This document shows, one piece after another, positions 14,064 through 29,518 of a stretch of 34,545 nt of DNA. The notes under the pieces are model-generated. The model made no database searches, was not told where the DNA came from, and worked only from the letters and a program-made list of their open reading frames with translations. Origin of the DNA: Oscillospiraceae bacterium (GTDB lineage: Bacteria; Bacillota; Clostridia; Oscillospirales; Oscillospiraceae); NCBI GenBank assembly GCA_009785525.1, contig WQWC01000022.1, positions 1 through 34,545 of the forward strand. The letters run 5' to 3'. Positions within the stretch are counted from its first letter, which is position 1. Each line of letters starts with the position of its first letter. Position numbers and translations under genes: made by a program.

Positions 14064-15702
14064 ATGTTTCACCCGTCCCAACTGCTTCTTCGTCGATTTC
14101 CCCAACAAAGCGGTATGAAATATCAACCTTGCAAATTCGCTGCCCGCCTATTTTTTTAGGTTCATACACTTTGATCTCGTCGATGAGTTCCAGCAGAATC
14201 GTCTGTGTCAGGGGTTCCAATTCGGCATACTCACGGATGAGATTAACCTGAGCACCTGCATCATTGTGGTCTGTTTCGCAGGCTTCTACTTTACTCCGCA
14301 GGACTTTGACCGTATTCGTTTTTTCTCCGCGCTCACACTCATATTTCCGCATCAGCGCGGCAAATATGCTTTCGGTAACCGTTCCGCTCATCCTATCTTC
14401 GTAAAGCATCGCAATTACTCCATCTAATTTTGCCAGCCTGTCCTCACACGCTTTTAATTCGCCTTTGTATGTATCAAGATATGCCGTGGTTGCGCTGCTT
14501 TTCTTTTTATTAATCGCAGCCATCACTCGCTCTTCGTCATACTCAGCCAATTCCGCATGCGCGCGTATTTCGTCCAGCACAAGTTGAATCAACGCCCTCT
14601 CGTTGATCGTGTGAACCGTACAGGCCGCTTTGCCGCTGCGGGCGTAGTTGCTGCAAATGAAATCCAGTGCCATGTGGATAGAACCGTCTTTGCGCGGGTA
14701 TTTTCTGCTCAATGCCCTCATGTTACACCCACAATCAGCGCATTTCAAAATGCCGACAAAAATGCTCCGGCATTCCCCGGTAGTATTGCGCGGTTTATAT
14801 TTCTTTTTTTCCAGCTCCCTGACCATGCTCCAATCTTCAATACTGATAAGCGGTTCATGGGTATTTTCCACTCGTATCCACGCTTCCTGCGGCTTATTGA
14901 CCAGCTTATGGTTTTTGTATGACATCGTGCCTTGTTTGCCTTGCACCATATGGCCTATGTAAACTTCATTGCATAATATGGATTTAACGCTGGTTTCATT
15001 CCACAAGCCGTTCTCTTTCAGCGGATTGCTCTGCCCATTTCTGCTGTAATAAATCGTTTTCGGTGACGGGACACACTCATTGTTGAATACGACCGCTATG
15101 GCGCGGTACCCAGCTCCGCCGCAACGCATTTCGAACATTCGCCGCACGATATGCGCGGTTTTATCATCTATGATAAGATGATGCTTATCCATCGGGTTCT
15201 TCTTATAACCCAGCGGCGCATATGTGCCGATAAATTTGCCTTGTTTCATATAAGCCAGCTTGACTGCCCGAACTTTCTTGCTGGTATCCTTTGAATGAAA
15301 TTCATTAAATAGGTTACGGTACACCATCATATCGTTATCGCCCAGCATGGAGTCTACTGAGTCGTTCAAGGCAATAAATCGGCAGCCCAACCGAGGCAAT
15401 GTCTCTTCGGTCAGCCGTCCGACTTCAATATAATTGCGGCCGAGCCGGGATAAGTCCTTGACGATAATCAGGTTTATGCGCTTATCTTCGGCGTCCCGCA
15501 TCATACGCTGGAATGCCGGACGCTGAAAGTTCGTGCCGGTGTGGCCATCGTCAATATATGTTTCCCTTATATCCCACCCTTTTTCCTGAGCATAATTCGT
15601 CAGCAAAAGCCGTTGATTTTCAATGCTGACAGACTCACCCACGCGCTCGTCATCCTTAGACAAGCGTAAGTATAATCCGGCTATGTATTTAGTATCGCTC
15701 AT
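14047..15702 (-). CDS. Large serine recombinase (first of a tandem pair)
   Basis: Paralogue of the downstream recombinase, with the same domain order. The resolvase domain has catalytic Ser in AGLYLRLSKDDE, IENQR, DDGHTGTNFQRPAF and KDLSRLGRNYIEVGR. The Recombinase domain includes CGGAGYRAIAVVFN, the zinc ribbon CADCGCNM, and a long C-terminal coiled coil with Lys/Glu-rich helices, ending in a DUF4368-like SYRFVGEID. I chose ATG 15702, preceded by GGAGG with an 8-base spacer; the upstream 10 residues are unlikely to be translated. Such pairs are typical of conjugative or mobilisable elements of gut Clostridia of the TnpX type. Both appear complete. Confidence 0.93.
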   Translation of the reverse strand: MSDTKYIAGLYLRLSKDDERVGESVSIENQRLLLTNYAQEKGWDIRETYIDDGHTGTNFQRPAFQRMMRDAEDKRINLIIVKDLSRLGRNYIEVGRLTEETLPRLGCRFIALNDSVDSMLGDNDMMVYRNLFNEFHSKDTSKKVRAVKLAYMKQGKFIGTYAPLGYKKNPMDKHHLIIDDKTAHIVRRMFEMRCGGAGYRAIAVVFNNECVPSPKTIYYSRNGQSNPLKENGLWNETSVKSILCNEVYIGHMVQGKQGTMSYKNHKLVNKPQEAWIRVENTHEPLISIEDWSMVRELEKKKYKPRNTTGECRSIFVGILKCADCGCNMRALSRKYPRKDGSIHMALDFICSNYARSGKAACTVHTINERALIQLVLDEIRAHAELAEYDEERVMAAINKKKSSATTAYLDTYKGELKACEDRLAKLDGVIAMLYEDRMSGTVTESIFAALMRKYECERGEKTNTVKVLRSKVEACETDHNDAGAQVNLIREYAELEPLTQTILLELIDEIKVYEPKKIGGQRICKVDISYRFVGEIDEEAVGTGETYAEAV

Positions 15703-15786
15703 TTCGTGTGCCTCCGATAAATGCGCAGCCAAGCCGGCAGTCGATATGTCCCTCCGGCTTAGCGTTAACTCTGATTGCTTGCTGCT

Positions 15787-16195: not shown

Positions 16196-17635
16196 TTATA
16201 CTCCCTCTTTTTTTATTATTTTCTCAAATTGCTCAATGGCTTCCATATCTTTTTTCATAGCCTTGCGCCCCTCGTCGGCTAGGATTTTTCGTCCATCTTT
16301 TGAACGGAATTTTTCGAGTCCCGCTCCCTCCCAGCCAATGCCCTGCGACCACAAAAAGCCACCGTATTTTGAACATTCATCAAGTGCGTTAATAGCAATT
16401 TCCAGTTCGGTTTTCCATTCGGGAAAGCGTTCTGCGAGTGAACGGTAATATGGAAGGCCGCCGTTTCTTCCCCAGATTTGACACAAACCATCGCAGTATT
16501 GCCCCAATATATCATTCACTTTTTCCGATGAAAGTTCGCTTAAATCTTCATTTTCAAGCATATACAAAAACGCTTCCCATGCGGCAAAGCCGATGTTCGC
16601 CGAAGACACCCGCATTGTTTTGCTGTCTATTTTATCTTTGCGTTTTGAACGATTAACAATCAACTTCAACAAATCAAGAAAACGCACACGTTCAGGAGCA
16701 ACATCGTTTTTCTCTTTCAACAGAATATAATCTGTAATCGTATCTTCCCAATTATCTCGAGAAACGGTTTCTGATAGTTTTTCGTCATTCGGTCCGTCGA
16801 TTCCCTCTTTGCAAATGATTGTGCTTCCACCATTTTCGTAGCCGATAACTGCGTTGAATCTGTAATTTTTTGTACCTAACGACATAATCGGAAACCCTTT
16901 ATCAATGGAATCAACGAAGTCTTTTTTGATTTGTTCGTTATCCGTATTCAGCGGTTTTCCTTGGTTATCCCGAAGAACTTTGATACACTTAACTTCCCAT
17001 CCAAAGGTTTTTAGTAAACGCACGATGTCTTCATAAGGAGTTTCATCAATGCTTCCTAAACATTCACAACCACGGCTCCAACTTCCGGGTATCCAAACGA
17101 ATCGATTAGCCATTCCGCTGTACACGGCTAATTCCGCCAATTCCGTTTTATCTCCCGCTCCGTTAAAAATGGACGTCAAAAGACTGAAAGTATAGTCAAC
17201 TTCACTACCGTCGTAGTTGACTTCCGGTATATTCGGAATAATTTTTCTTTCCATGTTAAATCCACCCCGTATATAAATATCAATTGTAAGCGGATAAAAA
17301 TGTTTCAAATTGTCATTTGATACCCTCGCGGTTGCAGGCGTAATCCCATGAAACCGCGTAAACGCTTTCGTAAAACTATCCGGCGAATCGTAGTTATACT
17401 TCAAAGAAACATCAATAATCTTGGCTTGCGTATTTTTAATTTCCTCGCCTGCAAGCGTCAATCGTCTGTTTCTAATATATTCGCTTATGGACAGCCCCGT
17501 AGCAATATTGAATATCCTCTGGAAATAATCGGTTGATGAATGTATATGGGTGGCTACATTGTCAGCATTAATATTTTCCAAAAGGTTATTTTCAATGAAG
17601 TTTATTGCGTTTTGAATATCATTAATCCAATTCAT
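16196..17635 (-). CDS. AraC-family regulator fused to a C39/BtrH-like domain
   Basis: The N-terminal about 105 residues form an AraC/XylS two-helix-turn-helix DNA-binding domain: NADNVATHIHSSTDYFQRIF, then YIRNRRLTLAGEEIKN and the second HTH ending FTKAFTRFHGITPATA. The following 370 residues are not a usual AraC effector domain. A block with FVWIPGSWSRGCECLG, then a beta-rich segment (IMSLGTKNYRFNAVIGYENGG) resembles BtrH-N/peptidase-C39-like folds, and a helical C-terminus follows. The DNA is more AT-rich than the genes that flank it. It stands upstream of the flavoenzyme/molybdoenzyme cluster and could regulate it, but nothing in the sequence proves this. Function of the C-terminal part is unknown. 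Confidence 0.8.
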   Translation of the reverse strand: MNWINDIQNAINFIENNLLENINADNVATHIHSSTDYFQRIFNIATGLSISEYIRNRRLTLAGEEIKNTQAKIIDVSLKYNYDSPDSFTKAFTRFHGITPATARVSNDNLKHFYPLTIDIYIRGGFNMERKIIPNIPEVNYDGSEVDYTFSLLTSIFNGAGDKTELAELAVYSGMANRFVWIPGSWSRGCECLGSIDETPYEDIVRLLKTFGWEVKCIKVLRDNQGKPLNTDNEQIKKDFVDSIDKGFPIMSLGTKNYRFNAVIGYENGGSTIICKEGIDGPNDEKLSETVSRDNWEDTITDYILLKEKNDVAPERVRFLDLLKLIVNRSKRKDKIDSKTMRVSSANIGFAAWEAFLYMLENEDLSELSSEKVNDILGQYCDGLCQIWGRNGGLPYYRSLAERFPEWKTELEIAINALDECSKYGGFLWSQGIGWEGAGLEKFRSKDGRKILADEGRKAMKKDMEAIEQFEKIIKKEGV

Positions 17636-17759: not shown

Positions 17760-19718
17760 TTAAAACCTGCCGATATTCCTCGCGGTCATAAACGCCTCGC
17801 ATGTCGCGTCGGTGATATTCCGCGGCGACACGCAGTCGCCTATCATGTGGAACTCCGGCGCGCAGAAACGCAAATCCGCCGCCGCGTCCCTTGCCGGGGT
17901 CTGCCCTGTGGCGTAAATCACGGTATCAGCGGGAACTGTTTTTTCCCCGTCCGGTGTCTCGCAGACAACTCCGTCAGTTGCTATTTCCCTCACTTTTGTG
18001 TTGAATTTAATTTCAAGCCCGCGATCCCTGATTTCAGCTTTCAACCCGGGCATGTGCAGGAAATTGCCGCCGTCACTGATACTGCCGAGCTGTTCGATAA
18101 CCGTGACTTTCCGGCCGTTGTCAATCAGGTGCAAGCCCAACTCAACGCCAACAAGCCCCGCGCCTAGGATCACGACATTCTGTCCCACTTTATTGAGCTT
18201 AACATACGCATCTATCGCAGACAGGACGTTGTCACTGCCGATTCCTTTGATATCAGGCTTCAGCGGGGACGCGCCAAGGGACGCGATAATCACGTTGGGA
18301 CTCTCTTTAGCGGCATATTCCGGCGTCACCTCCGTGCCGAGCCGCAGGTCAATTCCGGACTGCTTAATCGCCGATTCCTGCTGATCTAAATAGTGTTCAA
18401 GATTCTTTTTAAAGTAGACGCCCTCTTCACATCTCAGCACGCCGCCGAGCCGATCGCCTTTTTCGCACAGGATGACATCATGTCCGCGGGATTCACACGT
18501 CAGCGCCGCCTGCATTCCGCCGATTCCGCCACCTACTATAAGCACTTTCTTTTTAATCGCCGGCGGGATATCATACCGCATCTCAAGCTCACGCCCGCTT
18601 TCCGGGTTGATCGCACAGTACGGCTGTCCGTAGTTCATCTCGTTTGAAAAACAGGCAAGGCACCTCAGGCACTTACGCGCCTCAACTCCAGCCCTTGCTT
18701 TGTTCGGGAGGTCTGGGTCTGCCAATAATGCCCGCGCGGCCTGCACGACATCCGCTTTGCCGGAGGCGATTATCTCTTCCATCAGCTCCGGGTCAGAAAG
18801 CGCACCGACCGTTGCCACCGGGGTTTTGACGTGTTTCTTGATTTCGGCGGCGTACTGCACGTTGCACCCATCCTCCAGAAACATGCTTGGATGCGTCACG
18901 GCAAAGACCTCCTCCACCTCATGGTTGCCGGCGGAGACGTGTATGAGATCTACATGCCCGTCCAGCTGGCGCGATATCGCAACACCATTATCTATATCGT
19001 ACCCGCCATCATAACATTCAGAGCCGCTGATGCGTATCTCAATCGGGAATCCGGGGCCAACGGCTTTTCGTATGGCATCGCAAACGGCCACGACAAATCT
19101 GGCGCGGTTTTCTATATCGGGGCCGCCCCATTTGTCGCGCCTGGTGTTCGTCTTTGGTGAGAGGAATTGGTGCAAAAGCCAGCCATGCCCGGCATGTACC
19201 GTGACCATTCCGAAGCCGCAGCGTTTCGCCATTGCCGCCCCCTCCGCGAATTTGCGTATCGTGCGCTCAATTATCTCCTCGTCCATCGCAAGGATTTGCC
19301 TGCCGTTAAGCTCACACTCGACCGGACCGTAGGCAATCCCCCTTGATTCCGCGCCGAAAAAGCCTAAATCCCGGTTGGCATACATCCCGGTGTGCTGAAG
19401 TTCCAGCGACGCGACAGCGCCATAGCTTTTAATTGCAACCGCCACAGCGGCGAGGTTGCGGCTGATATTAGGCGTATCCAGGCAGATATGCCCGGCCCCG
19501 CCTTTGCCGAACTCGGAATCCACCACACCTTCAAACGTCGCAACGGAAGCGGCGCCGCCCATCGCCTTTCTGCCGTAATAAGCGCCCGCGCCTTCGTTTA
19601 AGTACCCGTCCCCGTTTATGTTCTGATATCCGGTGGGAGAAGCAAAGATACGGTTGCGGAAGACGGTGTTTCCCAAAACTATCGGTGAGAATAAGTGCGG
19701 ATATTTGCATTTATACAT
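17760..19718 (-). CDS. Old Yellow Enzyme/2,4-dienoyl-CoA-reductase-type flavoprotein (copy 1)
   Basis: Cytoplasmic NAD(P)H-dependent reductase of activated C=C bonds, in the long form with an FMN barrel, a 4Fe-4S cluster and an FAD/NAD(P) module. Length of 652 fits this class (also BaiCD/BaiH and FadH). The N-terminal barrel starts FSPIVLGNTVFRNRI and carries VHAGHGWLLHQFLSP at 174-188, with the His pair that binds substrate. Cluster cysteines are Cys350, 353, 356 and 368. The FAD motif is GGGIGG at 396-401 and the NAD(P) motif VVILGAGLVGVELG lies near 510. It is divergent from the molybdoenzyme gene at 19966, so the two probably share a control region. Substrate is unknown; an enone or ring alkene fits the neighbours. 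Confidence 0.9.
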   Translation of the reverse strand: MYKCKYPHLFSPIVLGNTVFRNRIFASPTGYQNINGDGYLNEGAGAYYGRKAMGGAASVATFEGVVDSEFGKGGAGHICLDTPNISRNLAAVAVAIKSYGAVASLELQHTGMYANRDLGFFGAESRGIAYGPVECELNGRQILAMDEEIIERTIRKFAEGAAMAKRCGFGMVTVHAGHGWLLHQFLSPKTNTRRDKWGGPDIENRARFVVAVCDAIRKAVGPGFPIEIRISGSECYDGGYDIDNGVAISRQLDGHVDLIHVSAGNHEVEEVFAVTHPSMFLEDGCNVQYAAEIKKHVKTPVATVGALSDPELMEEIIASGKADVVQAARALLADPDLPNKARAGVEARKCLRCLACFSNEMNYGQPYCAINPESGRELEMRYDIPPAIKKKVLIVGGGIGGMQAALTCESRGHDVILCEKGDRLGGVLRCEEGVYFKKNLEHYLDQQESAIKQSGIDLRLGTEVTPEYAAKESPNVIIASLGASPLKPDIKGIGSDNVLSAIDAYVKLNKVGQNVVILGAGLVGVELGLHLIDNGRKVTVIEQLGSISDGGNFLHMPGLKAEIRDRGLEIKFNTKVREIATDGVVCETPDGEKTVPADTVIYATGQTPARDAAADLRFCAPEFHMIGDCVSPRNITDATCEAFMTARNIGRF

Positions 19719-19793
19719 AACTAACTGCGCCCCCTTTATAAATTTTCATATATTTAAATGTCCGTGATTTTATTGTAAATATTTCCCAACACG

Positions 19794-19821
19794 ATTATAG
19801 CACGGCCCACATATTTGTCAA
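19794..19821 (-). promoter_or_regulatory. Promoter of flavoprotein copy 1
   Basis: On the minus strand TTGACA (19821-19816) and TATAAT (19799-19794) are separated by 16 bases, an almost ideal sigma-A promoter, giving a leader of about 70 bases before the ATG at 19718. Confidence 0.75.
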
Positions 19822-19897
19822 GTGATTTTTCGTGTTTATTTGACACCGTACGCAAAATATTGGCGGCTTCCGCCTGCTCCAAAGCCGTACTTTAACA

Positions 19898-19926
19898 TTG
19901 ACAAATTTACTGACATGGGGTATCGT
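19898..19926 (+). promoter_or_regulatory. Probable promoter of molybdoenzyme large subunit 1
   Basis: TTGACA at 19898-19903 with, 17 bases on, TATCGT at 19921-19926 (4 of 6 matches). The imperfect -10 suggests activator dependence. A small GGCGG-CTT-CCGCC palindrome at 19862-19874 lies just upstream and could be an operator; that is speculative. Confidence 0.5.
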
Positions 19927-19965
19927 GTAATTGATATATCAAACAAAATCTGAAAGGACGAGCCT

Positions 19966-22689
19966 ATGAAAAAGAGTAAGTTCACGCCTGACAAGACCAA
20001 CATAGTAAGCTTCAGCCTTATGGGACCGGAATCCGGAGGGCCCTGCCTTGTGGACTCTAACGACGGCAAAATTACCAGGATAAGGCCGTACTTTTATGAC
20101 AAGGAATATACAGACAAATATTGCAATCCGTGGGAAATACGTGCCCGCGGGAGTTCGTTCCGCGCGCCGGAGAAAGTCACTATATCGCCGTTCGGCCTGA
20201 CATATAAGTCGCGGGTATACTCAAAGAACCGCGTTAAATACCCTCTCAAACGCGTCGATTGGGATCCGAAGGGCGAGCGCAATCCGCAAAACCGCGGGAA
20301 GTCAAAGTACGTGCGCATCTCTTGGGATGAAGCGGCGCAGATCGTCGCGGATGAGCTTGTGCGGGTCAAAGAAAAATACGGCCCCGAAGCTGTGCTGTGC
20401 CAGTCTGACATGCACGGAGAGGGTAAGCATGTCGCACCGAGTCACGGCTGCCCAAACCGCCTGCTGTCGCTGATGGGCGGCTATACGCTGCAAATGCGGA
20501 ACATGGACAGCTGGGAGGGCTGGTATTGGGGCGCCAAACACGTCTGGGGATGTGAGCCTGTCGGTGAGATGATGCCGATGACGAATCTTTTCCCAGATAT
20601 CGCCAAACACTCTGACATGCTGCTGTTTTGGGGCTGCGACCCGGAAGTGACGCCCCTCGGCGTTGTGGGACAGCTTCCCAGCCGAATGTGCTATTGGTTC
20701 AGGCAGATCGGCATTAAGAATGTATATATCTGCCCCGATCTGAACTACGGCGCGTCTCTGCACGCCGACAAATGGATACCCATTCTACCGAATACTGACG
20801 CCGCGTTACAGCTGGCGATAGCCTATACCTGGATTACCGAAGGTACGTACGACAAAGAATATATCGACACCCACGCCTATGGGTTTGAGAAATTTGTGGA
20901 TTACGTACTCGGCAAATCTGACAATACTCCAAAAACGCCGGAGTGGGCGACTGAAAAGTGCGGAATTCCGGAATGGACGATAAAAGCGCTGGCGCGGGAT
21001 TGGGCAAAGAAAATTGTCAGCATACTTCACGCCAACGGCGGCGGTTATATTCGCGGTCCGTATTCGTCGGAACCGGCGCGGCTTGAGGCTATGCTGCTCG
21101 GTATGCAAGGTGTCGGCCGGCCCGGCGTGCATCAGGCGAAAGTGATTGAATTCAATCTGTGGAATAAGGATTACCCAATACCGTACCAAGGCGAGTTTTT
21201 ACCAGTTGTTCCTCATGCCGGCGACCCGCTGCGCCCGGTTGACGGGGACGTCCCAGAAGAGATCAATATGAACAGGTTCACGCTGAATGACGCGCAGAAA
21301 GAGCGCGCGCCGGAGCTTATTGAGCTGTTCAAGCAGCACCCGGCACCGCAGCAGTTTATCCCGCGCACACTGATCCATAAGGCGATATTGGACGGCAAGG
21401 CTGAGTGGTACGGGATGCAGGTATTCAGCTCCAGCCAGATTCCGGATAAGGACAATAACCGGCTGCCGACCGGGTATTCCCAGTTTGAGAAAATCGTCTA
21501 TCCGCGCCCGGGGTTGTCGAAAATACACATGATGTGGACCACGGCGCCATGCAACACCACATGCTGGAATGACGGGAACATGATGATTCGCGCCATGCAG
21601 CATGCGGATATAGAGTGCATTGTCGCACAGCACCCGTGGCTTGAAAATGACTGCTGTTTTGCCGACATAATCTTCCCCGTGTTGACAAAGCACGAGATGA
21701 ATGATATTTGCAACGACCTGTCAAGCGGCGCGTTTGTATCGATCTATCTCACAAGGCCTCAGACAGACACTGTCGGCGAGTCTAAGTCCGACTTCGATGT
21801 CTGCGCCGAAGTCGCGAGAAAGCTTGGGCCGGATTTTTACAAAGCGTATACCTGCGACCTCACAGAAGAAGAGCGGGTGCGGTTCTTCTACGCCGCTACA
21901 GGCTGTGAAGATTATATGACTTGGGACGAGTTCAATGAACGCAGAATCTTTGTCGTGCCAATCAAAAAGGACGCTGATAAACTTCCAGCGGGAATGTATA
22001 ACTTCTATAAAGACCCAAAGAATCACCCGCTGGAAACGCCTACCGGTTTGTTGGAATTTTCATCGTCTGCCATTGAAAAGCACATGCCGAACGACCCGGA
22101 GCGCCCGCCCGTCCCCGCCTGGATTGAAAAAAGTGAGAGTCACGACGAGCGGCTGTCGAGCGAACGCACGAAGGATTATCCGCTGATTTGTATGTCGAAT
22201 CACGGCAGATGGCGTATGCACGCGCAGTGCGACGATATTATCTGGAACCGCGAGATTGAGACAATGAAGATCCGCGCCAAAGACGGTTATCAATATGAGC
22301 CATGCTGGATTAATCCGGCCGAAGCGGCAAAGCGCGGGATAAAGCACGGCGATATAGTAAAGGTGTATAACGAACGTGGAACCGTCCTGTGCGGCGCGTA
22401 TGTGACGGAGCGCTTGGTTCCGCAGGTGTGCTATGTAGACCACGGTTCGCGAGTGGACTCGATAATCCCCGGCGAAGTGGACAGAGGCGGCGCAATCAAT
22501 CTGATTACGCCGACGGCAATGACATCAAAGAACGCAACCGGCATGGCGACAACAGCGTTTTTGGTCGAGGTCGCGAAAGTAACGGACGAAGAGATGTCAG
22601 CTTGGAAACGCAATTACGCGGACTCGTTCGCCAGAAAAGTTGACCCTGCTGCCGGAGTTTGTCTGGAAGGCTGGATGTTGGACAGCTGA
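19966..22689 (+). CDS. Molybdopterin oxidoreductase, pyrogallol-hydroxytransferase-like large subunit (copy 1)
   Basis: Bis-MGD molybdenum enzyme of the DMSO-reductase family, cytoplasmic (no Tat signal), 907 residues. It resembles the large subunit of Pelobacter pyrogallol-phloroglucinol transhydroxylase: no N-terminal FeS cysteines, shared ERNPQNRGKS, RISWDEA, DSWEGWYWG, ADKW, and YDKEYI...YGFEKFVDYVLGK blocks. Compared with that enzyme from memory, His150 matches catalytic His144, Asp181 matches Asp174, Ser182 matches the Mo-ligand Ser175, and Tyr407 (PIPYQGE) matches Tyr404. The C-terminal MGD-binding domain has RGIKHGDIVKVYNERGTV. AAGGACG precedes the ATG. There is no small subunit beside it; it may share the one at 28706. 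It could transfer or remove ring hydroxyls; substrate unknown. Confidence 0.88.
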   Translation: MKKSKFTPDKTNIVSFSLMGPESGGPCLVDSNDGKITRIRPYFYDKEYTDKYCNPWEIRARGSSFRAPEKVTISPFGLTYKSRVYSKNRVKYPLKRVDWDPKGERNPQNRGKSKYVRISWDEAAQIVADELVRVKEKYGPEAVLCQSDMHGEGKHVAPSHGCPNRLLSLMGGYTLQMRNMDSWEGWYWGAKHVWGCEPVGEMMPMTNLFPDIAKHSDMLLFWGCDPEVTPLGVVGQLPSRMCYWFRQIGIKNVYICPDLNYGASLHADKWIPILPNTDAALQLAIAYTWITEGTYDKEYIDTHAYGFEKFVDYVLGKSDNTPKTPEWATEKCGIPEWTIKALARDWAKKIVSILHANGGGYIRGPYSSEPARLEAMLLGMQGVGRPGVHQAKVIEFNLWNKDYPIPYQGEFLPVVPHAGDPLRPVDGDVPEEINMNRFTLNDAQKERAPELIELFKQHPAPQQFIPRTLIHKAILDGKAEWYGMQVFSSSQIPDKDNNRLPTGYSQFEKIVYPRPGLSKIHMMWTTAPCNTTCWNDGNMMIRAMQHADIECIVAQHPWLENDCCFADIIFPVLTKHEMNDICNDLSSGAFVSIYLTRPQTDTVGESKSDFDVCAEVARKLGPDFYKAYTCDLTEEERVRFFYAATGCEDYMTWDEFNERRIFVVPIKKDADKLPAGMYNFYKDPKNHPLETPTGLLEFSSSAIEKHMPNDPERPPVPAWIEKSESHDERLSSERTKDYPLICMSNHGRWRMHAQCDDIIWNREIETMKIRAKDGYQYEPCWINPAEAAKRGIKHGDIVKVYNERGTVLCGAYVTERLVPQVCYVDHGSRVDSIIPGEVDRGGAINLITPTAMTSKNATGMATTAFLVEVAKVTDEEMSAWKRNYADSFARKVDPAAGVCLEGWMLDS

Positions 22690-22708
22690 TAAATAATCTA
22701 AGATACTC

Positions 22709-22735
22709 AGAACCACCCGTTTTACGGGTGGTTCT
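22709..22735 (+). terminator. Terminator of molybdoenzyme copy 1
   Basis: Perfect 12-bp stem AGAACCACCCGT/ACGGGTGGTTCT with a 3-base loop, followed by TGTTG, 19 bases after the stop codon at 22689. Confidence 0.8.
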
Positions 22736-22747
22736 TGTTGCACAAAC

Positions 22748-22776
22748 AAAGGCTCCGGGGAAACTCCGGAGCCTTT
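22748..22776 (-). terminator. Terminator of flavoprotein copy 2
   Basis: Stem AAAGGCTCCGG (22748-22758)/CCGGAGCCTTT (22766-22776) with a 7-base loop; read on the minus strand it is followed by GTTTGTG. It lies 4 bases beyond the stop of the minus-strand flavoprotein gene. Confidence 0.8.
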
Positions 22777-22780
22777 ACGT

Positions 22781-24742
22781 TTAAATTTCCCTCGTCGCCC
22801 AGAAAGCGCTGCCGATTGCGTCACCCATCACGCCTGCTTTTATAGCATCTCCAATTACATAGGTCTCGGGCACAATTTCGTTTAGTTCATCAATCATGCC
22901 CTTATCCGGCTTCAAGCCGAACGCTATGACGGCCGTATCGCACGGTATTTTTACCTCTCCGCCATCTGCTTTCCTAACGGTTACACCGTCATTTGTGAAT
23001 TCCTGAACCGCACACTCCGGCATAAGCTTTACGTTATTCTCCGCCAACAGCCGGGTCAGCGTCGGCCTGCTGAAATGCCGCATATCGCTGTAGAACTGGT
23101 CTTCAGTCAGTGTATCCACCAACGTGACGTCACGGCCCTCCATCGCGAGAGCGAGGGCGCATTCCGTGCCGGACAATCCGGCGCCGCAGACGACAACTTG
23201 GCTGCCTGTCTCAGTTTCTTTCCGATCAACTACACTGACGTCTTTAACATTCGGCCCGTCAATGCCTTTTATATCCAGGCGAATCGGTTCCGCGCCAACG
23301 GCAATGATGAGAGTGTCCGGCGACTCCGCGCGGACTGCCGCGGCGTCAGCCTTTTTGCCGAGTACGATCTTCGCACCGCTCTCTTTCGTTTTGCGCACGG
23401 CATATTCGGCATATCTGCGGAACCCGTCTTTGAAGCTCAGTGCGCCCGCTTCCGGCAATCGCCCACCAAGTTTGTCGCCCTGTTCGTACAGAGTTATCTC
23501 GTGTCCGCGCTCGGTCAGATACGTTGCCGCCGCCATTCCGCCGGGTCCGCCGCCTATTATCATAACTTTCTTTTTCTTCAGCGCCGGCAGCGGCGTTGAA
23601 AATCCCCGATATTCCCATCCAAGCGATGGGTTGACGGCACAGCTGTTCAGGTGCGGACCGAATTCCCGCAGGCAGTACATGCAGCGCAAACATGGCTTGA
23701 TATCAGCTTCCAGCCCTCTTGCGCCCTTATTTACGAAGTCTCCGTCAGCCATCAATGCCTTTGCCATCGCCACGATATCGGCCTTGCCCGATTTGATTAC
23801 CTCCTCGGCATGTTCCAGTGTGGAGATACCGCCCACGACCGATACGACCAGATCCGGGCACGCCTCTTTGAACGCGGCGGCATACGGTACATTGACTCCG
23901 GCCGGTATGTAGTAGTTTGGCATGTTATAGCTGAATGCCTCACCATACTCCAAGTTCCCCGCCGAGACAACGATCATGTCTATATACCTCTGCGCTTCTT
24001 TCATAAACCGGATGCGCTCTTCCAGCGTCGTGCCGCCGGGCAAGTATTCATTACCAACGACACGCATCTCAAGCGGCATCCTGCCCTTTACAGTGCCGTA
24101 AGCCGCCTCTAAAAGCTCCAGCGGGAATCTCCAGCGGTTCTGCTCTGATCCGCCGTACTTATCGCCGCGCTGATTCCACAGCGTGGAGAGGAAGCCGGAC
24201 ATAAGATTGCCGTGTGCGTAATGGATCATTGCCATGTCGAACTTTGCTGCCATGCAGCGTTTCAGTGCCGCGACGAAATCATCGATAACAGTCAGCATTT
24301 GCGTGCGCGTGATCTCCTGGAACCGGTGCGCGGGTTCGTGATACGGCGCGACGATGGACGGAACCCACGCCCTCCGCCCCTCCGGCAGAGTCATGGCACC
24401 CCACTGTCCACCATGGATAAGCTCTGCCGACAGTTTGCAGTCATATTTGTGCAGTTCGTTAGCAAGCATGGTCAGACCCGGCACGTCGTGGTCATTCGTC
24501 GCGGATAAACAGCCGTAGAAATCCCGCGCCTCCTCAAAGTTCACCGGCGTGGAGCCGATGGTAACAAGGCTCGCCCCCGTTTTGCCCTGACCGCTGACGA
24601 ATTCCAGCATCTCATGCGTCACTCTCCCGGACTCATAGTCCGCGTGGTTCGTCACGATAGGTGAATACTGGATACGGTTTTTCAACGTCATGTTGCCGAC
24701 CTGAATCGGCTGGTACACATGCGGATATTTAGTCAGCGCCAT
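22781..24742 (-). CDS. Old Yellow Enzyme/2,4-dienoyl-CoA-reductase-type flavoprotein (copy 2)
   Basis: Second long-form FMN/4Fe-4S/FAD flavoprotein, 653 residues, same architecture as copy 1 but clearly diverged. The barrel starts YQPIQVGNMTLKNRI. The substrate-site segment reads MIHYAHGNLMSGFLSTLWN around His174 and His177, where copy 1 has the commoner HAGHGWLLHQFLSP, so the pocket likely differs. Cluster cysteines are Cys351, 354, 357 and 368. The FAD motif is MIIGGGPGGMAA and the second dinucleotide motif VVVCGAGLSGTECALAL. AGGAGG lies 8 bases before the ATG. It converges on molybdoenzyme 1 and diverges from the SDR gene. A distinct enoate or cyclic-enone substrate in the same pathway is the simplest idea. 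Confidence 0.9.
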   Translation of the reverse strand: MALTKYPHVYQPIQVGNMTLKNRIQYSPIVTNHADYESGRVTHEMLEFVSGQGKTGASLVTIGSTPVNFEEARDFYGCLSATNDHDVPGLTMLANELHKYDCKLSAELIHGGQWGAMTLPEGRRAWVPSIVAPYHEPAHRFQEITRTQMLTVIDDFVAALKRCMAAKFDMAMIHYAHGNLMSGFLSTLWNQRGDKYGGSEQNRWRFPLELLEAAYGTVKGRMPLEMRVVGNEYLPGGTTLEERIRFMKEAQRYIDMIVVSAGNLEYGEAFSYNMPNYYIPAGVNVPYAAAFKEACPDLVVSVVGGISTLEHAEEVIKSGKADIVAMAKALMADGDFVNKGARGLEADIKPCLRCMYCLREFGPHLNSCAVNPSLGWEYRGFSTPLPALKKKKVMIIGGGPGGMAAATYLTERGHEITLYEQGDKLGGRLPEAGALSFKDGFRRYAEYAVRKTKESGAKIVLGKKADAAAVRAESPDTLIIAVGAEPIRLDIKGIDGPNVKDVSVVDRKETETGSQVVVCGAGLSGTECALALAMEGRDVTLVDTLTEDQFYSDMRHFSRPTLTRLLAENNVKLMPECAVQEFTNDGVTVRKADGGEVKIPCDTAVIAFGLKPDKGMIDELNEIVPETYVIGDAIKAGVMGDAIGSAFWATREI

Positions 24743-24870
24743 ATGAAGTTCCTCCTAAATTTATTTCCCTCACCGCCGAATTTGACGGCGTAATAACACA
24801 AAATTGCTGAAAGCTGCATGACCATTTCGATGATTTGCAAATATTGTACCACATTTTTCACCGCAATGCA

Positions 24871-24899
24871 TGGACTTTTTGGCGATTCAGATGTATAAT
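24871..24899 (+). promoter_or_regulatory. Promoter of the SDR-molybdoenzyme 2 unit
   Basis: TGGACT (24871-24876) and TATAAT (24894-24899) spaced by 17 bases, about 45 bases before the TTG start at 24944. On the other strand a TACAAT at 24848-24843 could be the -10 for flavoprotein copy 2. Confidence 0.6.
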
Positions 24900-24943
24900 T
24901 GCGTGGAGTGAATAAATTTTATATACGAAAGGAGCGGATTGTA

Positions 24944-25753
24944 TTGGCTATAGTAAAAAACCCGCCTATTGAGTCCATGACAGGGGCGTTCGATATAAAA
25001 GGGAAAAACGTTGTCGTCACAGGCGGTAACCGCGGTATCGGCCTTGGTATATCGACTGCCTTTGCCCAGTGCGGCGCGAATGTCGCTATACTGTGCAGGA
25101 ACGAGGAATCCGGCAAATCAGTGGCGGAGAGCTTCTCCAAATACGGAGGGCGGCATACCTGCATTCAAGTTGACATCGCGAACCAAAGCTCCGCCGCCGT
25201 GGCCGCGAAACACGTTTACGAGTTCTTTGACCGTGTGGACGTGCTTGTCAACAACGCCGGCATCGGTTCGACGACAAATTTCTTCGCGCCGAACGGGTTG
25301 CAGGAGTGGCACAAGATTATCAATACAAATCTGCACGGCGTGGCGAATATGGTTTATTCCATCGTACCCGGCATGAAAGAATCCGGCCACGGCGGCACGA
25401 TAATCAACATTTCCTCCGTCGGCGGCCAGCGCGTGTCAAACTCACGCGAACATGACAACTCCCCGTACAACGCATCGAAAGCGGGGCTTGATATTTTTAC
25501 AAAATACTTGGCGCTGACGTTGGGCGACTACGGCATACGTTGTAACGCGATTGCACCGGGGATGACGCATTCGGACTTGGACAAAGACCTGCCTCCGGCC
25601 GCATTTGAAATGGCTGAGAAGACATTACCGACACACCGCTTCGGCGAGCCGATTGAAATCGGAGCGCTATGCGTATTCCTGGCCTCCCCCGCAGGGTCGC
25701 AGATCACCGGCACAATCATGGTGCATGACGGCGGATTGATGACAATGGTGTAA
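24944..25753 (+). CDS. Short-chain dehydrogenase/reductase
   Basis: Classical NAD(P)-dependent SDR, 269 residues. The cofactor motif is TGGNRGIG at 26-33, NNAG at 103-106, catalytic Ser near 157 (INISSVGG), and YNASK giving Tyr175/Lys179; IAPGMTHSDL and the C-terminal ITGTIMVHDGG are normal. The start is TTG at 24944, 9 bases after AAAGGAG; the upstream frame to 24899 would overlap the promoter. It precedes molybdoenzyme 2 by 94 bases on the same strand and may be cotranscribed with it. The generic sequence matches FabG/gluconate-5-dehydrogenase-type members. Because known phloroglucinol reductases are SDRs and the neighbours resemble the transhydroxylase, a ring-ketone or phloroglucinol-like reductase is a reasonable hypothesis, not a demonstrated one. 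Confidence 0.88.
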   Translation: MAIVKNPPIESMTGAFDIKGKNVVVTGGNRGIGLGISTAFAQCGANVAILCRNEESGKSVAESFSKYGGRHTCIQVDIANQSSAAVAAKHVYEFFDRVDVLVNNAGIGSTTNFFAPNGLQEWHKIINTNLHGVANMVYSIVPGMKESGHGGTIINISSVGGQRVSNSREHDNSPYNASKAGLDIFTKYLALTLGDYGIRCNAIAPGMTHSDLDKDLPPAAFEMAEKTLPTHRFGEPIEIGALCVFLASPAGSQITGTIMVHDGGLMTMV

Positions 25754-25760
25754 GGATTTC

Positions 25761-25794
25761 CCCCTTTTCCCCTTCGCGCACGAAGGGGAAGGGG
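25761..25794 (+). repeat. Hairpin between SDR and molybdoenzyme 2 genes
   Basis: An inverted repeat with a 10-bp stem TTCCCCTTCG/CGAAGGGGAA and a 4-base loop, extended by a further CCCC/GGGG pairing across a 2-base bulge. No T-run follows, so it could be a dispersed palindrome, a leaky terminator or an RNA-processing site within the operon. Confidence 0.5.
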
Positions 25795-25847
25795 ATGTTC
25801 CCATCTGGCTATAAGTTAATTATAATTTGATTAAAGGAGGCATCCAT

Positions 25848-28637
25848 ATGGTGGTTAAACCTATTGATATCAAGGCCGATAAGCGGGTGTTTAAAGCTGC
25901 GAGTCTTATGGGGCCGCGCAGCGGACTGCCCACGGTGGTTGAGTCTGACAAGGACGGCAATCTGACGCGGATACGGCCTATGCATTATCGGGATTATGTT
26001 GACTGGGACAGCAAAAATCCCTGGAAGATCGAGGCACGGGGGAAAACACTTACCCCGCCGGATCGCACACTGCCGGGAGTCTACTACATGTCGTATAAAA
26101 AGCGCGTGTATTCAGAAAACCGGGTGAGATGGCCGTTAAAACGTGTTGACTGGGACCCGAAAGGTGAGCGCAATCCGCAAAACCGCGGGAAATCGCCCTA
26201 TGTACGTATTTCATGGGATGAAGCGGCACAGATCGTCGCTGATGAGCTGTTGCGTATGCGGGACACATACGGCATGTCGGCCGTGCTATCGCAAGCGGAT
26301 ATGCATGGTGAGGGCAAGCACGTCGCACCCAGCCATGGCTGTGCCAACAGATTGCTGTCACTTCTGGGTGGATACACAAGCCAAATGCGCAATCAGGACA
26401 GCTGGGAGGGGTACTCCTGGGGCTCGAAAAACGTCTGGGGTGGGGAGCCTGTCGGAGAAATGCAGCCCTCTGGCAATGTGTGGCCGGATATCGCGAAGCA
26501 TTCAGAACTTTTGCTCTTTTGGGCGGCGGATCCTGAAACCACACCGGTCGGGTTCGACGGGTATATGTCCAGCCGCCTCAATCAATGGCTGAAGAGCATC
26601 GGCCTCAAATACGTATATGTTGACCCCGCGCTGAACTACTCAGCGTGCTATATGGCTGACAAGTGGATCCCGATTTTGCCGAATACCGATGCCGCGATGT
26701 TTCTGGCGATTGCGTATGTATGGCTGACAGAGGATACGTACGACAAGGAATACGTAAAAACCCACGCGGTTGGGTATGAGCCATTTTTTGACTATGTGCT
26801 GGGCAAAGAGGATGGGGAGTCGAAAACCCCGGCGTGGGCCAGCGAAAAATGCGGCGTACCGGAATGGACGATCAAAGCCGTGGCGCGCGACTGGGCGAGC
26901 AAAATAACCAGTCTGACGATAGGCAACGGCGGCCCCGGTATCCGCGGCGCGTTTTCGACTGAACCTGCGAGGTTGCAGTCAATCCTGCTCGGTATGCAGG
27001 GCCTCGGCAAACCAGGCGTCCATCAGGCAAAGTGGCTGGAGTGGAATCTGCACACGCCTGTATATCAGATGCCGTATCAGGGTGAGGCGGTAATAAACCT
27101 GCCGCACCGCGCCGAACTTGTCCGCCCATATGATTCGTCCCGTGAGTGGCTCGCCAAATCGTTGGAAGTGCACAGCCCCGAACGGACTGACGAAGCCGCA
27201 AAAGAGGCAAAATCGGACGAGCCGTTTAAGATTCAGGATGATATAGGTCAGGGCCGCTATAAGTTAAGCGAAGTCGCAAGCACGATTGAAGAACTGGCGG
27301 AGCTGTGCAAGATCACCGATATCCCGCCGCAACAGTCTGTGCCGCGCTGTATGGTGCATGACGCCATATTGAAAGACAGCATAGAGTGGTGGGGACTGTA
27401 CTCATTCTGCGGACCAGCAGAGCAGCAGTGGACAAAGCATGTGTTTCCAAGACCGGGGCACTCCCGCCTGCATATGATCTGGACCGACGCGCCCTGTAAT
27501 GTCACCTGCTGGAATGATGGGTTCAACTTTGTCAAGGCATACCGTTCACCGGAAATAGAGTGCATTGTCGCACAGCACCCATGGATGGAAAACGACTGCT
27601 ATCTGGCGGACATCATACTTCCCGTCGCGACAAAGTTCGAGATGGATGATATCTGCGACGATGCCGGCGGCGGTACGCTGACATCGGTATTCCGCGAGTA
27701 TCCGGCCTGCCCGCCAATCGGGGAATCTCTCAACGATTTCGACTGTGTGGCGACTGTAGCGAGAAAAATCAGTGAAGACGTCTTTATGGCGTATACGGGT
27801 AACGATAAGGCAGTCGAGCGTGTTATTGAACTATTTTGGCAAGGCTCCGGCGTCGCGCATCTTGACACCGAAGATGAGTTCCACAAAAAAGATATCTTCG
27901 TTGTGCCGGGCGACACAAGAATTCAGGAGGCGCCGGCGGGGCTCGCCGAATTTGCCGGCAATCCGGATGAGCATCCGCTCTCAACACCGACCGGCAAGCT
28001 GGAGTTCACATCGACCGGATTGCTGGAACATTTCCCGAATGACGAGGAACGCCCGCCGTTTCCGAAATGGATAGAGAAAAGTGACCTGCATGATGAGCGG
28101 TTGTCAAGCCCGCGCGTGAAGGACTATCCGTATCTATGCATGTCAAACCACGGCAGATGGCGTTTCCACGCAAATCTTGACGACGTGACGTGGAGCCGTG
28201 AGATAGAGACGATGAAAATTCGCGCCAAAGACGGCTATCAGTATGAACCGGCGTGGATGCACCCGGCCGCGGCAAAAGAGCGTGGTATAGCGCATGGAGA
28301 TATAGTGAAGGTCTATAACGAGCGCGGCACGGTTCTGTGCGCGGCGTATTTGACTGAGCGGCTTATACCGCAAGTGATTTATGTCGATCACGGCTCGCGC
28401 TTTGACCCGATTGACGTTGAAACGCTTGACCGCGGCGGTGCGATTAACCTGATAACGCCGCACAACAACATTTCAAAACACGCAACCGGGATGGTTGTCT
28501 CCGGCTTCCTTGTCGGCATTGATAAAGTCACCGACGAAGAGATGGCCGGGTGGAAAGCAAAATATCCCGAAGCGTTTGCACGTAAAATCGATGAAGCCTG
28601 CGGCGTCTGTCTTGACGGCTGGCTGATTGACAGTTGA
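25848..28637 (+). CDS. Molybdopterin oxidoreductase, pyrogallol-hydroxytransferase-like large subunit (copy 2)
   Basis: Paralogue of copy 1 with about 929 residues from the ATG at 25848 (AAAGGAGG, 7-base spacer; an upstream TTG at 25827 precedes the ribosome-binding site). Long identical blocks with copy 1 include ERNPQNRGKS, RISWDEAAQIVADEL, DMHGEGKHVAPSHGC and the C-terminal MKIRAKDGYQYEP. Putative active-site residues by comparison with the Pelobacter enzyme are His153, Asp184, Ser185 (Mo ligand) and Tyr410 (MPYQGE). It carries an extra charged segment around 440-490 (SLEVHSPERTDEAAKEAKSD) absent from copy 1. There is no signal peptide and no N-terminal FeS cysteine motif. The iron-sulfur subunit follows 68 bases downstream, so these two form the obvious heterodimer. 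Confidence 0.88.
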   Translation: MVVKPIDIKADKRVFKAASLMGPRSGLPTVVESDKDGNLTRIRPMHYRDYVDWDSKNPWKIEARGKTLTPPDRTLPGVYYMSYKKRVYSENRVRWPLKRVDWDPKGERNPQNRGKSPYVRISWDEAAQIVADELLRMRDTYGMSAVLSQADMHGEGKHVAPSHGCANRLLSLLGGYTSQMRNQDSWEGYSWGSKNVWGGEPVGEMQPSGNVWPDIAKHSELLLFWAADPETTPVGFDGYMSSRLNQWLKSIGLKYVYVDPALNYSACYMADKWIPILPNTDAAMFLAIAYVWLTEDTYDKEYVKTHAVGYEPFFDYVLGKEDGESKTPAWASEKCGVPEWTIKAVARDWASKITSLTIGNGGPGIRGAFSTEPARLQSILLGMQGLGKPGVHQAKWLEWNLHTPVYQMPYQGEAVINLPHRAELVRPYDSSREWLAKSLEVHSPERTDEAAKEAKSDEPFKIQDDIGQGRYKLSEVASTIEELAELCKITDIPPQQSVPRCMVHDAILKDSIEWWGLYSFCGPAEQQWTKHVFPRPGHSRLHMIWTDAPCNVTCWNDGFNFVKAYRSPEIECIVAQHPWMENDCYLADIILPVATKFEMDDICDDAGGGTLTSVFREYPACPPIGESLNDFDCVATVARKISEDVFMAYTGNDKAVERVIELFWQGSGVAHLDTEDEFHKKDIFVVPGDTRIQEAPAGLAEFAGNPDEHPLSTPTGKLEFTSTGLLEHFPNDEERPPFPKWIEKSDLHDERLSSPRVKDYPYLCMSNHGRWRFHANLDDVTWSREIETMKIRAKDGYQYEPAWMHPAAAKERGIAHGDIVKVYNERGTVLCAAYLTERLIPQVIYVDHGSRFDPIDVETLDRGGAINLITPHNNISKHATGMVVSGFLVGIDKVTDEEMAGWKAKYPEAFARKIDEACGVCLDGWLIDS

Positions 28638-28648
28638 CAATCGTTAAT

Positions 28649-28675
28649 GTAGGGGCGGTCTGTGAGCGCCCCTGC
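28649..28675 (+). repeat. GTAGGGGCG-family hairpin between large and small subunit genes
   Basis: GTAGGGGCG (28649-28657) pairs with CGCCCCTGC (28667-28675) across a 9-base loop, with one G-U pair. It belongs to the same repeat family as at 5528, 5625 and 9581. It is not followed by a T-run; in the transcript it might alter the ratio of large to small subunit. Confidence 0.5.
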
Positions 28676-28705
28676 AAAGATACCATAATTAATTAGGAGG
28701 TTTTT

Positions 28706-29518
28706 ATGCCGAAAGTATTTACTGTTGATGTTGCTAAGTGCAACGGGTGTTATAACTGCCAACTTGCCTGTAAGGATGAGCATTCCGGCAATGATTGGAC
28801 GCCTTATGCCAAGCCGCAGCCGGATATCGGCCAGTTTTGGGTAAAGCTCCAGGAAAATGTAGGCGGTACGATTCCGAAAGTTAAGATACATTACATCCCG
28901 TATTTGTGCAATCACTGCGAGAAAGCGGCCTGTATGGAAGCCTGCGGAAGAGGGTGCTTCTACAGGCGGGACGATGGGCTTGTTATCCTTGCCCCGGAAA
29001 AATGCGATGGGTGCGGCAAGTGTATGAAGGCATGTCCGTATCACGCGATATTCAAAAACGATGAGTTGAAGATATGTCAGAAATGCACCGGCTGCGCGCA
29101 CTTGCTTGACAATGGCTATAAGTTGCCGCGCTGTGTGGAGGCGTGTCCGACTGATTGTTTGCAATTCGTTGAAGAAGCGGATGCACAGGCCTTCATCGTT
29201 GGTTCGACAGTCAATATGCCGGAGACGGGGCTGCGGCCTCGTGTGTTCTACCGCAACATACCGGGCAAATTTATTGCCGGGACAGTATACGACCCAGTTG
29301 AGAAAGAGGTTATCATCGGCGCGAGATGCCGGGCGACAAACGGCGGCAAAACTGTTGAGGTGCTCTCCGACGAATACGGAGACTTCTGGTTCAAGGACTT
29401 GGCAATGGGCAAGTACGATGTTGTCATAGAGGCAAAGGGCTATGAATACAAGACGTTCGACGCTGTTGACGCAACGATTGACGTCAACTTAGGCGACATC
29501 GCCATGGACCGGGTGTAA
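28706..29518 (+). CDS. Iron-sulfur small subunit with C-terminal Ig-like/carboxypeptidase-regulatory-like domain
   Basis: Electron-transfer subunit for the molybdoenzyme upstream, 270 residues, AGGAGG before the ATG. The ferredoxin part has four cysteine groups: Cys12/15/18/22, Cys68/71/76/80, Cys100/103/106/110, and Cys124/127/130 with 143/147/151. From about 190 to 265 lies a small beta-sandwich (Cna-B or carboxypeptidase-regulatory-like): GARCRATNGGKTVEVLSDEYGDFWFKDL... The same two-part plan is found in the small subunit of pyrogallol-phloroglucinol transhydroxylase, which strongly links the module to that enzyme. Unlike the Pelobacter protein, where I recall the third cysteine group as degenerate and only three clusters, this one seems able to hold four. 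Confidence 0.9.
   Translation: MPKVFTVDVAKCNGCYNCQLACKDEHSGNDWTPYAKPQPDIGQFWVKLQENVGGTIPKVKIHYIPYLCNHCEKAACMEACGRGCFYRRDDGLVILAPEKCDGCGKCMKACPYHAIFKNDELKICQKCTGCAHLLDNGYKLPRCVEACPTDCLQFVEEADAQAFIVGSTVNMPETGLRPRVFYRNIPGKFIAGTVYDPVEKEVIIGARCRATNGGKTVEVLSDEYGDFWFKDLAMGKYDVVIEAKGYEYKTFDAVDATIDVNLGDIAMDRV

Follow-up and report, generated by a model that had tools for sequence, protein, structure and literature searches.

Molybdopterin large subunits of a sister clade to pyrogallol transhydroxylase in an Oscillospiraceae gene island with Old Yellow Enzyme-type reductases

Introduction

Pyrogallol transhydroxylase of Pelobacter acidigallici (AthLS, or PgtLS; structure 4v4c) transfers a hydroxyl between phenols: at one metal, a first phenol loses a hydroxyl and a second gains one, with two electrons moving each way. 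Its large subunit AthL requires 1,2,3,5-tetrahydroxybenzene as cosubstrate. It is the closest described relative of a gene island in a stretch of 34,545 nucleotides from an Oscillospiraceae bacterium (assembly GCA_009785525.1, contig WQWC01000022.1), called here the window, which is the entire contig C22 of a 2.16 Mb genome (96% complete, 70 contigs). The island (Table 1) codes two transhydroxylase-like large subunits (THL1 and THL2), one iron-sulfur (Fe-S) small subunit (THS), two long reductases of the Old Yellow Enzyme (OYE) type and a short-chain dehydrogenase/reductase (SDR). A preliminary description had read these genes as a pathway that rearranges or removes the hydroxyls of phenol rings and then reduces the ring. 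What it observed was right, and its interpretation is right in kind, not in detail.

Other described systems bear on the comparison. The 3,5-dihydroxybenzoate hydroxylase DbhL is a Ser-ligated cytoplasmic enzyme with an aromatic substrate. Resorcinol hydroxylase RhL, like DbhL compared here by description only, shares these three traits according to the account in PMC10100899. The catechol dehydroxylases (Dadh, Hcdh, Cadh, Cldh) resemble the enzymes of the island as bis-molybdopterin guanine dinucleotide (bis-MGD) enzymes acting on ring hydroxyls by a similar proposed chemistry, but are described in PMC7028382 as grouping with acetylene hydratase, away from the transhydroxylase. In a comparison represented by acetylene hydratase 2e7z and not by Dadh sequences, the island large subunits reach 438-444 bits with 4v4c but about 43-44 bits with 2e7z. 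Genes resembling those of the phloroglucinol pathway (PGR, DPGC, TfD, TAL; as outlined in PMC10470551) are found in the same genome on contigs C2 and C28, but all lie outside the window and no examined SDR is close to the solved phloroglucinol reductase (PGR).

Phylogenetic placement of the large subunits

The large subunit of pyrogallol hydroxytransferase 4v4c is the best match in the Protein Data Bank (PDB) of both THL1 (444 bits, E 1e-131) and THL2 (438 bits, E 7e-130), and the closest PDB match of THS is the corresponding small subunit 4v4c_B (167 bits, E 4e-48). The two large subunits carry the Pfam domains Molybdopterin, Molydop_binding and AhtL-like_1st, the latter being domain 1 of the AthL type, while THS, like the small subunit of AthLS, has Fe-S domains followed by a C-terminal domain, which is CarboxypepD_reg in THS. 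THL1 and THL2 are 59% identical. Their paralogy and the presence of one small subunit matching the transhydroxylase, both proposed at the outset, are thus borne out.

Two trees were built with TorA and DmsA as outgroup, one of 72 rows and one of 24 rows under a mixture model. In the 24-row tree THL and AthL-like sequences form separate clades, each with support of 100/100, and the 72-row tree has the same split, likewise fully supported. Pelobacter AthL sits with L176 and other AthL-like rows, outside the THL clade, and the AthL-like clade includes a copy encoded on contig C28 of the window's own genome. A plasmid search led to proteobacterial homologs, and the three that were placed in the tree are also AthL-like. 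Judged by these trees, THL forms a clade of its own that is deep, well supported and sister to pyrogallol transhydroxylase, distinct from the characterised enzyme. The outgroup branches are long, and the root is less certain than the THL/AthL-like split; for the 72-row tree the program issued a long-branch warning. The claim that both large subunits are transhydroxylase-like stands, therefore, as far as kinship to 4v4c goes and not as membership with the characterised enzyme, whose clade is represented in this genome by the C28 copy. Likewise, of the placements that had been suggested for phylogenetic checking, the nearest kin is the transhydroxylase, although as sister and not as enclosing family, and close kinship to catechol dehydroxylases, judged by the scores to acetylene hydratase, was not found. 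No description of a THL-like clade and no characterised member were found in the open-licence literature, judged mostly by titles and abstract openings.

Within the THL clade THL1 belongs to group A. THL2 belongs to group B and, in the 72-row tree, to a portion of it with 18 rows; there is also a group C, which includes a copy on contig C1 of the same genome. Note that groups A and B were assigned by best hit and not by tree: group A as assigned has a support of 56 in the 72-row tree, in which group B is not monophyletic (the 18-row clade of THL2 does not include L130_8971, L148, L166, L172 and L174).

Three observations on the distribution of these genes can be added. At L036 (5738-10591, minus strand) the group C large subunit of the window's own genome has its own small subunit, with a radical SAM gene alongside. 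Genome G014 (L039, L050, L051, L188-L190), of the same genus, has an unusual expansion: ten stretches match the query P0001 and amount to about nine genes, the copies on its contigs C2 and C120 scoring alike and being possible duplicates. A THL1-type gene lies on a 4.4 kb contig (L113) of a metagenome-assembled genome labelled Synergistaceae, by transfer or by a binning error.

Active-site residues

Residues were compared in an alignment of 152 sequences, in AthL numbering, from which large subunits below 780 amino acids and copies with an identical middle part had been dropped. The core of the Mo site is kept almost throughout (S175 and H144 in 152/152, W176 in 151/152, D174 in 150/152), and THL1 and THL2 both have all four residues. 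We take Ser175 to be the Mo ligand, accompanied by Asp174, His144 and Trp176, and Tyr152, Tyr404 and Tyr560 to form the substrate site of AthL; these roles reportedly come from crystal-structure work of 2004. The three substrate-site positions are Tyr in 38/38 AthL-like rows and differ in the 114 rows of groups A, B and C, where position 152 holds Pro or Ala, with a single Thr, and position 560 is always deleted. Position 404 is Ile in 71/84 group A rows, yet Ala in THL1, is Arg in 21/24 group B rows including THL2, and is a gap in group C. The equivalents of Tyr152, Tyr404 and Tyr560 are accordingly P158, A418 and a deletion in THL1, and P168, R428 and a deletion in THL2. The Arg of group B could bind a carboxylate.

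Five genes that belong to a single family precede the THL2-type gene of L046 (706-9350). One of them was scanned and matches Amidohydro_2, which counts hydroxybenzoate decarboxylases among its members. This neighbourhood fits an aromatic-acid substrate for group B but does not prove it.

Iron-sulfur relay of the small subunits

THS has Cys ligands for four clusters, the fourth set being C80, C100, C103 and C106, whereas AthS lacks the ligands of one cluster. Small subunits were compared after removal of those below 230 amino acids and of exact copies, near-copies being retained. Ligands of the fourth cluster are present in 44/63 THL-paired small subunits (group A 29/43, group B 9/14, group C 6/6) versus 0/35 AthL-like-paired ones (Fisher p 4e-13, ignoring relatedness). 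Since an enzyme that runs a half-reaction must pass electrons while a redox-neutral transhydroxylase need not, the kept relay supports, without proving it, a redox function of THL.

No small-subunit gene adjoins THL1 itself. In a survey of 62 THL1 loci a small subunit is found within 700 bases in 39, and none within 700 bases downstream in 23, the partner in L155 lying beyond that distance. This common lack of an adjacent small subunit suggests that small subunits are shared.

Co-occurrence with AthL-like and phloroglucinol-pathway-like genes

Genomes of the family (300, from which we take the THL, AthL-like and DPGC-like counts all to derive) were scored at limits, chosen by us, of 1e-150 for THL and AthL-like and of 1e-60 for DPGC-like genes. 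THL is found in 68 genomes, AthL-like in 71 and DPGC-like in 64. The three types travel together: AthL-like genes are present in 56/68 THL carriers versus 15/232 non-carriers and DPGC-like genes in 54/68 versus 10/232, or, by genus, in 31/33 and 29/33 THL-carrying genera, respectively. The 12 THL carriers without an AthL-like match are all at most 90% complete. In a class-wide draw a single genome of 291 matches at the same limit, namely the window's own.

Physical linkage was analysed in a named scan, which started from 528 candidate stretches, found a relative encoded in 460 and kept the best 80. At least 6 kb is available on one side of 55 loci, among which AthL-like genes occur in 20, AthL-linked SDR genes in 11 (either of the two in 22) and DPGC-like genes in 12. 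The THL1 orthologs of relatives frequently stand beside, or are transcribed away from, gene clusters that comprise AthL-like, small subunit, thiolase, SDR, MerR, DPGC-like and TfD-like genes; these neighbour lists are incomplete, as gene calling by codon usage misses true genes (e.g., the AraC gene of the window). In the window's own genome the corresponding genes are split between C28 (L035: AthL-like, small subunit, thiolase, SDR) and C2 (L228: cyclase-family or DPGC-like, 3-hydroxyacyl-CoA-dehydrogenase-type or TfD-like and, by sequence reading, probable cleavage-enzyme and CoA-transferase genes). THL1 was also considered as a substitute for AthL where it stands by an AthL-linked SDR gene with no AthL alongside, and this was rejected: genomes G243, G112, G282, G100 and G237 carry AthL-like genes elsewhere, the one of G243 as two fragments only.

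The linkage between the two THL types recurs, as had been proposed for checking. THL1 and THL2 types share a contig also in L039/L097, L057/L150 and L148, the THL2-type gene of the last being the one outside the main group B clade. The record titles of named-scan matches point to rumen, sheep, deer, buffalo, yak and horse samples, and some relatives presumably originate from termite gut and digesters, as we read their isolate codes. Unclassified Oscillospiraceae increased in rumen fluid given gallic acid, according to the statement in PMC12249202.

The flavoprotein and dehydrogenase genes

Both reductases match the Old Yellow Enzyme family PF00724 above its cut-off (OYE1 186.6 bits, OYE2 156.6 bits), as first described; they have Oxidored_FMN and Pyr_redox domains, Pyr_redox_2 being matched by OYE1, and are 33% identical to each other. 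Their genome has nine OYE matches, three of them on the window contig. The closest PDB entry of both is 6qkg (252 bits for OYE1, 230 bits for OYE2), 2-naphthoyl-CoA reductase, a dearomatising OYE whose layout of flavin mononucleotide (FMN), Fe-S and flavin adenine dinucleotide (FAD) sites is similar as presented in PMC6502838; the match is distant, no aryl-CoA genes were found beside the OYE genes and the function is not transferable on these grounds. The second parallel is the bile-acid set. Its genes, in the layout BaiCD, BaiH, BaiA, likewise comprise two related long OYEs and one SDR, and BaiCD is the top NCBIfam model of OYE2 and the second-best of OYE1 (mycofact_OYE_2 377 bits, BaiCD 362 bits, both below cut-off). 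However, the BaiCD scores (NF041087; 362 bits for OYE1, 392 bits for OYE2) stay far below the cut-off of 825, and no CoA ligase or CoA transferase is found among the neighbouring window genes scanned.

Phloroglucinol reduction by an SDR had been cited as a model for the island. A close phloroglucinol reductase is rejected: entry 5g4k, which we take to be the solved enzyme, is absent from the best 60 of 699 PDB matches of the SDR, the 60th of which scores 111.9 bits, and its identity to the SDRs encoded next to AthL-like genes is 27-32%. Two confirmed PGRs have a mutual identity of 59.5%, as stated in PMC10470551.

It is possible, although we would put it below an even chance, that the island is a chance or mobile assembly in which OYE1, OYE2 and SDR act on an unrelated plant metabolite, an explanation compatible with any reading of THL. 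OYE1-OYE2-SDR cannot be regarded as exclusive to THL islands: orthologs of the three (77%, 75% and 77% identical, respectively) are found together without THL at L213, in a genome of another genus (G068), and among 14 SDR-ortholog loci from other genomes an OYE gene is present in eight and a THL or AthL match in none (tblastn, E 1e-10). Next to the island are the genes of two large serine recombinases, and a search of its intergenic regions for a shared operator gave no common word of at least 10 bases. The distribution of OYE genes argues in the other direction. After removal of repeated contigs and of loci with less than 6 kb of total flank, and with the window included, an OYE gene lies within 6 kb at 7/22 group B loci versus 3/71 of group A (p 0.0013; 0.0016 without the window), with 1/6 in group C and 1/39 at AthL-like loci. 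The group B loci concerned span four genera, three of the seven coming from one, and their OYE subfamilies differ. In L056 and L058 THL2 is directly preceded by an OYE gene read in the same direction. An ortholog of OYE2 (59-60%) adjoins a THL2-type gene in divergent orientation, within 300 bases, in L048 and L063; in L062 the distance is about 2 kb.

OYE1-OYE2-SDR is thus a separable module, and the module and the THL genes are each also found alone. The linkage of OYE with THL2-type genes that had been sought in relatives does recur, but the full six-gene set is absent from every other locus examined and was seen only on the window contig. As to the pathway acting on phenol rings, the part that holds is the co-occurrence of the THL clade, in many gut genomes, with AthL-like genes and genes resembling those of the phloroglucinol pathway, while a joint pathway of the six genes is unsupported, the module being present also without THL. 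Note that L213 also holds, by sequence reading, two alcohol-dehydrogenase-like genes and one aldehyde-oxidoreductase-like gene.

Proposed function of THL and alternatives

The best explanation at hand, which is held tentatively, is that THL enzymes catalyse a redox half-reaction at the ring hydroxyls of phenols derived from tannins. It builds on the family, clade, residues, cluster ligands and co-occurrence described above, from which we infer substrate, direction, electron route, compartment and any joint pathway. THL1 and THL2 would be alternative catalytic subunits of Mo (or W) bis-MGD enzymes, probably cytoplasmic; THL2 would pair with the four-cluster THS, which THL1 may use as well. Their substrates would be small polyhydroxylated aromatics of the tannin and lignin phenol pool that drains to the phloroglucinol pathway, a neutral phenol for group A (THL1) and possibly an aromatic acid for group B (THL2), with its Arg at the Tyr404 position. 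A core that is kept, substrate residues that are changed and a relay that is often kept are most simply read as a half-reaction coupled to an electron pool: electrons from the cell would enter THL through the full THS relay for a single half-reaction, most likely the reductive removal of a ring hydroxyl. OYE1, OYE2 and SDR would be the separable ene-reductase/dehydrogenase module set beside THL in the window. The reductive direction is favoured because the hosts are probably fermenters and because rumen microbes turn gallic acid into phloroglucinol or resorcinol, as stated in PMC12249202.

Several observations weigh against this proposal. The fourth cluster is lost in 19/63 THL-paired small subunits, which indicates that it is not needed clade-wide and that its presence is no proof of net redox. 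Position 404 falls within a gapped stretch of the alignment, and the AlphaFold model of THL1, with a mean pLDDT of 41, lends the reading of the pocket no support. Kinship was handled in the co-occurrence data by counting at genus level only, and nine genomes have AthL-like and DPGC-like genes without THL, so that the pathway can do without it. PGR, DPGC and TfD are names given by family and gene order with the pathway laid out in PMC10470551, the SDR alone having been compared with a characterised protein; the AthL-linked SDRs (L035 3188-3994; L093 2682-3479, minus strand) score 117 and 122 bits to 5g4k and higher, 146 and 143 bits, to gluconate 5-dehydrogenases. This weakens the naming of the pathway, and the true phloroglucinol reductase of these genomes may be located elsewhere. 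Finally, the OYE and SDR genes of the window are separate transcription units and recur without THL.

A rather unlikely alternative is that THL1 and THL2 are redox-neutral transhydroxylases for other isomers that feed AthL, for example in hydroxyhydroquinone and tetrahydroxybenzene steps such as those reportedly found in 1992 in cell extracts of Pelobacter massiliensis. THL shares family and Mo-site core with AthL, is frequently adjacent to AthL-like genes, and some small subunits of groups A and B are, like AthS, devoid of the fourth cluster. The full relay in most THL small subunits, lost in all 35 AthL-like partners, and the absence from THL of the substrate-facing Tyr residues speak against this alternative. 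It is improbable that THL enzymes are RhLS-like hydroxylases that add a water-derived hydroxyl and send electrons out, e.g., to make the 1,2,3,5-tetrahydroxybenzene that AthL needs. In favour are the full relay of THS, the linkage with AthL-like genes and the position of RhL as the other Ser-ligated aromatic hydroxylase of this superfamily region (as described in PMC10100899); against it are the nine genomes with AthL-like and DPGC-like genes but no THL, the harder disposal of electrons for a fermenter and a tree placement made without an RhL sequence.

A more specific version of the reductive half-reaction joins the whole island in a resorcinol route, which we regard as quite unlikely in its entirety. 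By position and analogy, THL1 and THL2 with THS would dehydroxylate pyrogallol-type to resorcinol-type rings, OYE1 and OYE2 would be ferredoxin-dependent reductases yielding a cyclic 1,3-dione by C=C reduction of the keto tautomer, and SDR would reduce the ketone. To our knowledge no genes have been assigned to the enzymes of a resorcinol route. A ferredoxin-dependent resorcinol reductase is stated in PMC10470551, and the turnover of gallate to resorcinol in the rumen in PMC12249202; the tie of either to the island genes is our own proposal.

The THL clade is uncharacterised and common in one family, mostly of herbivore and termite guts, where it co-occurs with genes for tannin rings. Annotation by homology will tend to label THL as pyrogallol transhydroxylase, and claims on pyrogallol-phloroglucinol flux in metagenomes (e.g., those outlined in PMC12203004) may count another reaction. 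With the same core, changed substrate residues and a relay kept in one and lost in the other, the AthL/THL pair is a test case for what separates a redox-neutral transhydroxylase from a reductase or hydroxylase. If THL removes ring hydroxyls, it could be the missing gene for the reported rumen conversion, which would also consume reducing power; if the resorcinol route is true, it would be a second drain for tannin phenols alongside the phloroglucinol route.

Gene organization of the island

All six genes are open at the positions that the preliminary description had given them, and their families are matched far beyond chance by Pfam (Table 1).

Table 1. Genes and sequence elements of the island and its adjoining regulator gene (window coordinates; aa, amino acids; ORF, open reading frame).
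Feature	Position	Strand	Description
AraC-type regulator	16196..17635	-	479 aa, HTH_18 (helix-turn-helix), adjoins OYE1
OYE1	17760..19718	-	652 aa, FMN/Fe-S/FAD-type ene-reductase (BaiCD/DCR-like)
Promoter-like site, OYE1	19794..19821	-	TTGACA-16-TATAAT, 12/12, consensus match only
Promoter-like site, THL1	19898..19926	+	10/12, consensus match only
THL1	19966..22689	+	907 aa, molybdopterin large subunit, THL clade group A
OYE2	22781..24742	-	653 aa, FMN/Fe-S/FAD-type ene-reductase
Promoter-like site, SDR	24871..24899	+	10/12, consensus match only
SDR	24944..25753	+	dehydrogenase; probable TTG start 24944, ORF opening 24899
Hairpin, SDR-THL2 gap	25761..25794		GC-rich, near-perfect, without T run behind
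Promoter-like site, THL2-THS	25798..25826	+	10/12, consensus match only
THL2	25848..28637	+	molybdopterin large subunit, THL clade group B; probable ATG start 25848
THS	28706..29518	+	270 aa, Fe-S small subunit, ligands for four [4Fe-4S] clusters, C-terminal CarboxypepD_reg

The most likely start of THL2 is the ATG at 25848 behind the ribosome site AAAGGAGG, the ORF itself opening with TTG at 25827, and that of SDR is the TTG at 24944 behind GAAAGGAG, in an ORF that opens at 24899. OYE1/THL1 and OYE2/SDR are divergent pairs, and only THL2-THS looks like an operon. The promoter-consensus scan lists 12 sites in the region, where chance alone would give 10.5, and none for OYE2. With this count at chance level and no common intergenic word, joint regulation of the island is a candidate only. 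The AraC-type regulator could, from its position, control the neighbouring OYE1.

The helix-turn-helix is the sole Pfam match of this regulator, a 44% homolog of which adjoins another OYE gene of the same genome (L227). The amidase gene that flanks the island on the left is without a match at E 1e-40 in the 18 other genomes of the genus, and scans of the window with Rfam and for tRNA genes led nowhere. The genome has three MoeA_N matches. The large serine recombinases beside the island are two adjacent genes (12444-15732, minus strand) with Resolvase, Recombinase, Zn ribbon and DUF4368 domains, and may represent a mobile element. On the other side, a shortened OYE gene (32205-32924, minus strand; 239 aa) covers only positions 2-197 of the 342 of Oxidored_FMN and is 45% identical to OYE1 over the matching part.

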